Positions 9,839 to 10,960 of a stretch of 32,158 nt of DNA are shown piece after piece (positions within the stretch are counted from its first letter, which is position 1; each line of letters begins with the position of its first letter). Source of the stretch: an uncultured Lachnospiraceae bacterium (lineage in GTDB: Bacteria > Bacillota > Clostridia > Lachnospirales > Lachnospiraceae); the NCBI GenBank assembly GCA_905235585.1, contig CAJOME010000006.1:1-32158 (forward strand). The letters run 5' to 3'. A program made the translations under genes and the position numbers. The notes beneath the pieces were generated by a model. That model was not told where the DNA came from and did not search any database. It worked only from the letters and a program-made list of their open reading frames with translations.

Positions 9839-9867
9839 ATAATATCACAGATCGTCAGATTGTTAAA
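9839..9867 (-). promoter_or_regulatory. Possible promoter of the 1414-aa activase gene
   Basis: Minus strand TTTAAC (9867-9862), 17-bp spacer, TATTAT (9844-9839); -35 matches the consensus at only 3/6. Confidence 0.3.
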
Positions 9868-9872
9868 CTCGG

Positions 9873-10016
9873 GTTACTGTTCACACCTTGCAGGTGCTCA
9901 CAGCAACTGGATTTGCCCAATATAATTGCCTGCGGCAAGGGGCAAATCCTTGTATCGGCTTCTGTAATCTTTTTCACGCTCAGCGCAGCTAGTGCGCAGA
10001 GCTGTCTGAACAGTAA
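9873..10016. mobile_element. MITE-like / structured inverted-repeat element
   Basis: TIRs TTACTGTTCA (9874-9883) and TGAACAGTAA (10007-10016), perfect 10 bp; flanked by direct repeats TAAACTCGG (9864-9872 and 10017-10025); internal hairpins at 9884-9896, 9909-9949 and 9978-10002; no plausible CDS. Confidence 0.75.
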
Positions 10017-10102
10017 TAAACTCGGACATAAGGATACATATCTATTGAAAAAAACGGATTACATATGATAGCACAAGCAAAGACAGAGGGATTGAAGTTT
10101 TC

Positions 10103-10960
10103 TCACTTCGCTTCTTCGAGGATAAATGCTTTCAGTTCATCAAGGTGAGCTTCCATGGTGCTGCGGCCTATGTCGTATACGCGCTGGAGCTCCTCGGGGT
10201 CATGCTCGGTATGATTGATGTGAAGAGCTTCCGGGGGCTGTATCACGAAGGCACTGCCCTCAGCGGAGCATTTCCTTACAAGCTCGAGTTCCTTATTATA
10301 CATGATGTGACGCCTCGCCATGGCTTTGACCATGGCGGGGTATTTTCTTAAAAAGGCACCTATGATGCGCATGTCGCGTGCGGGCTCTTTCACAAATCCG
10401 TCCGGCTGTGTGAGCACTACGACATTCTTTTCGTAGCCCTTTTTCTGCATGAAATGCAGCGGTATGGAGTCAGACATGCCTCCGTCCAGATATCTGTGTC
10501 CGAGTATCTCTACGGGTCTGGAAGCGAGGGGCATGGAGGCTGAGGCTCTGAAGTACAGCATATCTATGCCTGAGCCCTCCTTAAGATTCCTATATACTGC
10601 CTTTCCGGTATCCACATCGGTCATCACCGCATAGAGCGGCATCGGATTCTCGCGGTAGGTCTTAAGGTCGAAAACATCATAGTGAAAGGGGATCTTCTCG
10701 TAGCAAAACTCCGCTCCGAACATATCTCCTGTAAATATCAGAGACCATATGGAGCAGTATCTCCAGTCCTTTGCAAAGCGTTTGTTATATCGTATGGCAC
10801 GTCCTATCTGTTTTGACTTGAGGTTACATCCGAATACCGCGCCTGCGGATACTCCTACCGCCCCGTCGAATGTGATATCGTGCTCCATCAGCACATCCAG
10901 TACACCCGCCGTAAACATGCCTCTCATGGCTCCGCCTTCGAGTACTATTCCCACGCTCAT
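10103..10960 (-). CDS. Patatin-like phospholipase family protein
   Basis: 'VGIVLEGGAMRGMFTAGVLDVLME', 'GVSAGAVFG' (GxSxG) and 'LDGGMSDSIPL' (DGG). ORF track start is 10978, but GGGAGG lies inside that extension, so ATG at 10960 is preferred. Confidence 0.92.
   Translation of the reverse strand: MSVGIVLEGGAMRGMFTAGVLDVLMEHDITFDGAVGVSAGAVFGCNLKSKQIGRAIRYNKRFAKDWRYCSIWSLIFTGDMFGAEFCYEKIPFHYDVFDLKTYRENPMPLYAVMTDVDTGKAVYRNLKEGSGIDMLYFRASASMPLASRPVEILGHRYLDGGMSDSIPLHFMQKKGYEKNVVVLTQPDGFVKEPARDMRIIGAFLRKYPAMVKAMARRHIMYNKELELVRKCSAEGSAFVIQPPEALHINHTEHDPEELQRVYDIGRSTMEAHLDELKAFILEEAK

Follow-up and report, generated by a model that had tools for sequence, protein, structure and literature searches.

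A short segment of a Lachnospiraceae contig raises two questions. It is bounded by inverted repeats with a direct duplication outside them, and three hairpins lie in between. How did such a segment come to sit where it does, and what is its elaborate fold for? We studied it in the window, by which we mean the whole stretch of 32,158 nucleotides that was analysed, from an uncultured Lachnospiraceae bacterium. The first-pass annotation described a 144-bp inverted-repeat element with a 9-bp target duplication, read the two together as implying transposition, and took the fold to be either structured RNA or structured single-stranded DNA. It named no transposase family.

Here we report a comparison of this element with its relatives in the same genome and in public genomes. 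We conclude that it is a MITE, one of a family spread through the Lachnospiraceae, and that IS66/ISBst12-like transposases very probably move it in trans, perhaps helped by its DNA hairpins. The transposase half of this reading is well supported; the hairpin half we infer.

The element and its insertion

The features as first described are largely borne out by the sequence. TTACTGTTCA (9874-9883) is the exact reverse complement of TGAACAGTAA (10007-10016), TAAACTCGG stands on both flanks (9864-9872 and 10017-10025), and the three hairpins lie where they had been placed. Comparison of the window copy with other copies shows that the terminal repeat of the family is 11 bp long (GTTACTGTTCA/TGAACAGTAAC). 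In the window copy the final base of the right repeat is T rather than C, so that it ends in TGAACAGTAAT. This T, together with another that stands by chance just before the left duplication, makes the 8-bp duplication look like 9 bp. The inverted-repeat element with a duplicated target thus stands, at 145 bp and 8 bp as judged from other copies; the length of the duplication was the sole error. Table 1 gives the corrected limits. The element is short and non-coding (it is crossed by a single open reading frame, of 81 aa, which is incidental) and has terminal inverted repeats, as a MITE does.

Table 1. Features of the element in the window and loci of a second architecture with the same ends
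Feature	Position	Strand	Basis
Whole element (MITE), 145 bp	9873-10017	+	Alignment with about 40 own-genome copies; flanking 8-bp duplications; empty site in G017
Left target-site duplication AAACTCGG	9865-9872	+	Direct repeat; 8 bp in other copies; single copy AAAATCGG at the empty site
Right target-site duplication AAACTCGG	10018-10025	+	Direct repeat; other copies; empty site
Left terminal inverted repeat (TIR) GTTACTGTTCA, 11 bp	9873-9883	+	Exact recurrence of the 11-mer in the genome
Right terminal inverted repeat TGAACAGTAAT, one mismatch at the last base	10007-10017	-	Comparison with other copies
Arm 1: CACCT-TGC-AGGTG; loop TNC (GNA on the - strand)	9884-9896	+	Sequence; loop survey
Internal TIR-like copy CTCACAGCAAC	9897-9907	+	Sequence; conserved in class-A elements; bounds the 26-37-bp mini-elements
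Arm 2: outer stem GGATTTGCCC/GGGCAAATCC, 7-nt bulge, inner stem TTGCC-TGC-GGCAA	9909-9949	+	Pairing conserved in 62 divergent representatives
Arm 3: GCTC-a-GCGCA-GCTAG-TGCGC-a-GAGC; loop type A(GYnnR)T	9978-10002	+	Sequence; pairing and loop surveys
Second-architecture loci	L112, L117, L139, L150, L162, L185, L210, L226		

Is the element repeated, and did it insert? The host assembly (1.97 Mb in 174 contigs, 89% complete) contains 44 matches to it. About 27 are full length; many of the rest are truncated where a contig stops. The 11-mer end occurs exactly 93 times in the 1.97 Mb and the reversed control not once, which rules out chance as the source of the ends. A sister species, G017, has the orthologous intergenic region at 85% identity with no element in it. 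Its alignment continues through window position 9872 and picks up again at 10026, and the target is present once, as AAAATCGG followed by ACATAA. This locus is an empty site, so the element inserted with duplication of its target, and the transposition that had been read from the repeats and the duplication is supported. The first-pass annotation would have been abandoned for an element that was single-copy, had no empty site or had arms that did not covary. This one is multi-copy and has an empty site, and its arms covary (see below).

Other arrangements occur in the same genome. In a longer subfamily, extra hairpins of about 97 bp, starting CAGTCAAATACCCCG, are inserted in arm 2 (L028:850-1091; also L085, L231 and L244). 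Solitary ends with one arm left, often lacking a target duplication, are found on contigs C11, C12, C13, C33, C55, C68, C90, C107 and C109; their abundance suggests frequent decay by one-sided deletion. The sequence CTTCGCTTCTTCGAG, at window positions 10106-10120, lies close to where the downstream gene ends. Its only other occurrences in this genome are on contigs C24 and C72, beside or inside copies of the element, and it is probably of minor importance.

Family distribution and partner transposases

Exact pairs of the 11-mer at a spacing of 108-138 bp turned up in 118 or more stretches of public genome sequence, nearly all from Lachnospiraceae, where by our own estimate chance would give fewer than about one. 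The hosts include Blautia wexlerae, Eisenbergiella tayi, Kineothrix alysoides, Anaerobium, Oliverpabstia and Butyrivibrio, and Butyrivibrio sp. LC3010 holds relatives of the window element's own subfamily, which suggests that the window's host belongs to Butyrivibrio or close to it. The terminal pair was found at MITE spacing in 30 of 397 sampled Lachnospiraceae genomes (26 of 334 genera). A class-wide sample yielded it only in the host's own genome and in none of the roughly 280 genomes from other clostridial families. Of the exact-end copies, 121 have both flanks available; in 94 of these an 8-bp duplication is perfect or has a single mismatch, where 0.0004 would be expected. The distinct insertion sites number 130 in all. 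The exact pattern search of viral contigs returned a single match, with the perfect duplication CTTAAAAG.

The same ends also enclose other interiors. A second architecture, common in Blautia and its relatives (Table 1), has a different fold and the motifs CTTCGCGATGCACAG and CACCTCGCG. In one termite-gut member of the Bacillota (L123:3032-3171 and L125:2453-2598) the ends surround one long, near-perfect internal palindrome, and there is no target duplication.

Which enzyme moves the family? The first-pass annotation had proposed a search for a full-length transposon with these termini, and two such elements came to light. One, in G028:C5, is 2193 bp long (L104:2523-4715); it starts GTTACTGTTCACTG, ends TAAACAGTAAC and has GTTCATTT duplicated on both flanks. 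The other, in G013:C14, is 2314 bp long (L095:1355-3668), with perfect 14-bp ends, GTTACTATTCACAG, and the duplication AGAGGATT. Both have ends of the form GTTACT[G/A]TTCA, both have 8-bp duplications and both encode IS66-like transposases. A second transposase of G028 (L057) matches PF03050 (DDE_Tnp_IS66) with an E-value of 1.4e-20 and 74 bits against a cut-off of 23.1; it falls under the NCBIfam IS66 equivalog cut-off (167.9 bits against 180). From the shared ends and PF03050, the transposase family that had gone unnamed can be assigned, on sequence grounds, to a divergent, ISBst12-like branch of IS66. Because complete IS66-type elements share both the ends and the 8-bp duplications of the MITE family, we hold with high confidence that an IS66-like transposase would recognise the ends of the element and move it in trans.

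A survey of 48 genomes of the genus separates this branch from canonical IS66. Every divergent locus (those scoring weakly, at 45-77 bits) has at least one GTTAC-type end when up to two mismatches are allowed, whereas none of about 20 canonical, strong-scoring loci has a pair of such ends. Canonical IS66 elements were rejected as partners for want of paired GTTAC ends. The idea that the MITE is a simple deletion derivative of its partner was also rejected, since the interior of the IS lacks the three arms. The autonomous elements with shared ends come from G028 and G013, not from the host's own, incomplete genome; no IS66 transposase was found in that assembly, which counts against the assignment.

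A composite structure was noted in G028:C14 (L057:2136-6090). It consists of an IS66-like element, then 1.8 kb, then a third end with arm-3-like hairpins, and an 8-bp duplication, GCAACCCG, surrounds the outer pair of ends. This third end is part of a 164-bp element that shares the layout but has unrelated arm sequence.

Pairing, loops and fold of the arms

Are the arms conserved as structure? We collected 168 elements in 52 sequence clusters. The layout of the window element (arm 1 beside the left TIR, the internal TIR-like copy, the bulged arm 2 and then arm 3) is found in 119 of them. Across species the outer stem of arm 2 reads GGATTTGCCC, GAATCCAGCC, GCATCCGGCC or TGCATAAATCC: the sequence is wholly different and the complementarity is kept. 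In a gap-free set of 13 elements, two-sided changes within the named structure number 42, against 14.1 +/- 2.8 after shuffling, and the covariation score is 0.247, against 0.006-0.065 for slid partners. Covariation in the arms is therefore strong.

Pairing is almost purely Watson-Crick. Stems in 62 representatives contain 1376 Watson-Crick pairs, 5 G-T and 6 A-C, while 15 tRNAs from the same loci contain 309, 23 and 0 (Fisher p 8e-13). One caveat is that the pairs next to the loop are set in advance by our stem finder, though equally for G-T and A-C. Mismatches within families are balanced as well (49 G-T, 60 A-C). Neither between nor within families does the comparison of G-T with A-C reveal an RNA-strand bias, although a structured RNA would be expected to accept G-U pairs on its own strand.

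The loops are constrained too. TNC triloops cap arm 1 in 42 of 58 representatives and arm 2 in 43 of 53, so the TGC loop that the first annotator saw on two arms was a real signal. Arm 2 has a C-G closing pair, whereas that of arm 1 is mostly T-A, and on the opposite strand the loop of arm 2 reads C(GNA)G. Arm 3 has a distinct conserved loop, A(GYnnR)T. GNA triloops form extraordinarily stable DNA mini-hairpins; d(GCGAAGC) melts at 78 C (PMC4686876). In the promoter hairpins of phage N4, extrusion at physiological supercoiling requires a C-G closing pair and a loop with 5' G and 3' A (PMC4496689). The near absence of G-U pairs, taken with the GNA triloops, suggests that the arms are selected as folded DNA and not as RNA. 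Of the two kinds of structure first offered, DNA is thus favoured.

Folding of the window element is far stronger than chance on both strands, whether computed as RNA (z = -4.9 and -4.1) or as DNA (z = -4.2 and -4.9). As single-stranded DNA, both strands have the full four-way cloverleaf as their centroid, exactly the junction that the terminal repeats had been said to close. The left TIR has a second possible partner, the internal TIR-like copy, with which it would close a hairpin of 35 bp (hairpin 1); the cloverleaf and this hairpin are thus mutually exclusive.

How might such a fold serve the element? The arms would be extruded by negative supercoiling or would form in single-stranded DNA, and the 145-bp element could then, for instance, fold into a four-way junction with its two ends brought together at the base. 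We hold with moderate confidence, at about even odds, that the arms help transposition in this way, as DNA hairpins or cruciforms. The resident copies bear on when selection acts. Within the family of the own genome there are 71 broken stem cells and 3 compensated ones, and family consensus sequences remain paired while resident copies gain broken pairs; pairing is thus kept in the lineages that spread. Selection at transposition fits this better than repair after insertion or use by the host.

The same observations bear on the strongest of the alternatives, in which the element is an ordinary MITE and its palindromes are a functionless by-product of template switching at replication forks, copying arm onto arm. 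Inverted repeats in single-stranded DNA are substrates of quasi-palindrome correction, and strict Watson-Crick pairing is its expected outcome. Yet the decay of resident copies argues against continual correction after insertion, and correction would not hold the TNC and A(GYnnR)T loops constant while the arms change. We doubt this account, though we give it some weight.

Shortened forms put the role of the arms in question from another side. Perfect 8-bp duplications flank forms of 26 bp (L196 and two in L200), 35 bp (L090, and L232 by eye), 37 bp (L059) and 60 bp (L068 and L228); two shifted controls, run on the 211 short candidates, gave no such duplication. Those of 26-37 bp consist of arm 1 alone, and the 60-bp forms likewise lack arms 2 and 3, which speaks against the arms being required. 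Such forms may be mobile themselves, moving without the arms, or may be scars of later deletions. Deletion is plausible because the internal CAGYAAC copy and the outer end form short direct repeats; the junction of the 60-bp forms lies at CAGCAA/CAGCAA. A bolder reading makes the folded DNA itself the substrate of transposition, with GNA-capped cruciforms, a four-way junction that pairs the ends, and a single 26-37-bp hairpin as the minimal unit. In so small a hairpin the ends would lie too close for a normal double-stranded synaptic loop. We consider this reading unlikely; if it were true, a DDE transposase acting on a cruciform would represent a new mode of transposition. A role for cruciforms in DDE transposition in any case becomes testable.

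Could the arms be selected as RNA? After insertion the transcribed element might end transcription, insulate its neighbours or stabilise mRNA as an array of hairpins, roles that have been proposed for ERIC, BOX or NEMIS repeats. Both strands fold strongly, and 97 of 107 insertions lie outside predicted open reading frames (nearly all of these intergenic; 9 lie inside), with a slight bias in orientation relative to tandem genes (38:22, p 0.05). But G-U pairs are hardly found, A-C mismatches are as frequent as G-T, and convergent gene pairs hold no excess of insertions (7 of 97, compared with 32 of 209 background regions), on which ground a terminator role was rejected. Nor did Rfam searches of the window and 17 related loci match the element, for which no family came up even at an E-value of 5. 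An RNA role appears decidedly improbable.

Least credible, at a very small probability, is mobility through a single-strand-specific recombinase acting on a folded strand, whether integron attC-like or HUH/REP-like: attC sites also conserve structure rather than sequence, and GNA loops favour single-stranded DNA hairpins, but precise 8-bp duplications and 11-bp ends common to IS66-family elements are the mark of a DDE transposase.

Relation to known repeats

A MITE moved by IS66-like enzymes has its nearest parallels in the IS66/ISBst12 group itself. ISDge4, of the ISBst12 group, has the TIR GTAACTGCTCAGCA and an 8-bp target duplication (PMC12898284). The present element also duplicates 8 bp, its GTTACTGTTCAGAC agrees with GTAACTGCTCAGCA at 10 of 14 positions, and its partner IS elements encode a PF03050 transposase. 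It differs in having no gene and three covarying arms, and the partner transposases are divergent. MITEAba12 (PMC6382973) is similar in size (about 110-150 bp), multi-copy, and has target duplications and TIRs matching a coresident or related IS; it is mobilised by ISAba12, makes 9-bp duplications and has only weak predicted structure, in contrast to the strong, family-wide covarying fold seen here. The hairpins of N4 virion RNA polymerase promoters and the d(GNA) mini-hairpins share the C(GNA)G loop-closing motif and extrusion at physiological supercoiling (PMC4496689, PMC4686876), but they belong to phage promoters rather than transposons, and the analogy is purely physical.

Our literature search, in which subscription journals were scarcely covered, found no IS66-linked MITE of Lachnospiraceae, no report of the end sequence in such a context and no MITE described as having a covarying DNA fold of several arms. 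Both MITEs and IS66 elements are familiar; this large repeat family is apparently new to description. It spans Lachnospiraceae of gut and rumen (Butyrivibrio, Blautia, Eisenbergiella, Kineothrix and others) and is tied here to IS66-like transposases. Covarying arms are usually taken as proof of structured RNA. Here the lack of G-U pairs points instead to DNA that folds, and pipelines for RNA discovery should take note.

One further repeat of the same genus deserves mention. Clostridiales-1 RNA (RF01699) is also a multi-hairpin repeat, of about 160 bp, with many copies per genome; its ends and arms are different and it does not match the present element. It occurs in 43 of the 48 genus genomes, with 46 or more copies in some, and has inverted ends TGAT..ATCA (seen, for example, at L113:7089-7256 and, among the genomes, in G014). 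This repeat, too, may be mobile and not an sRNA of the usual sort.
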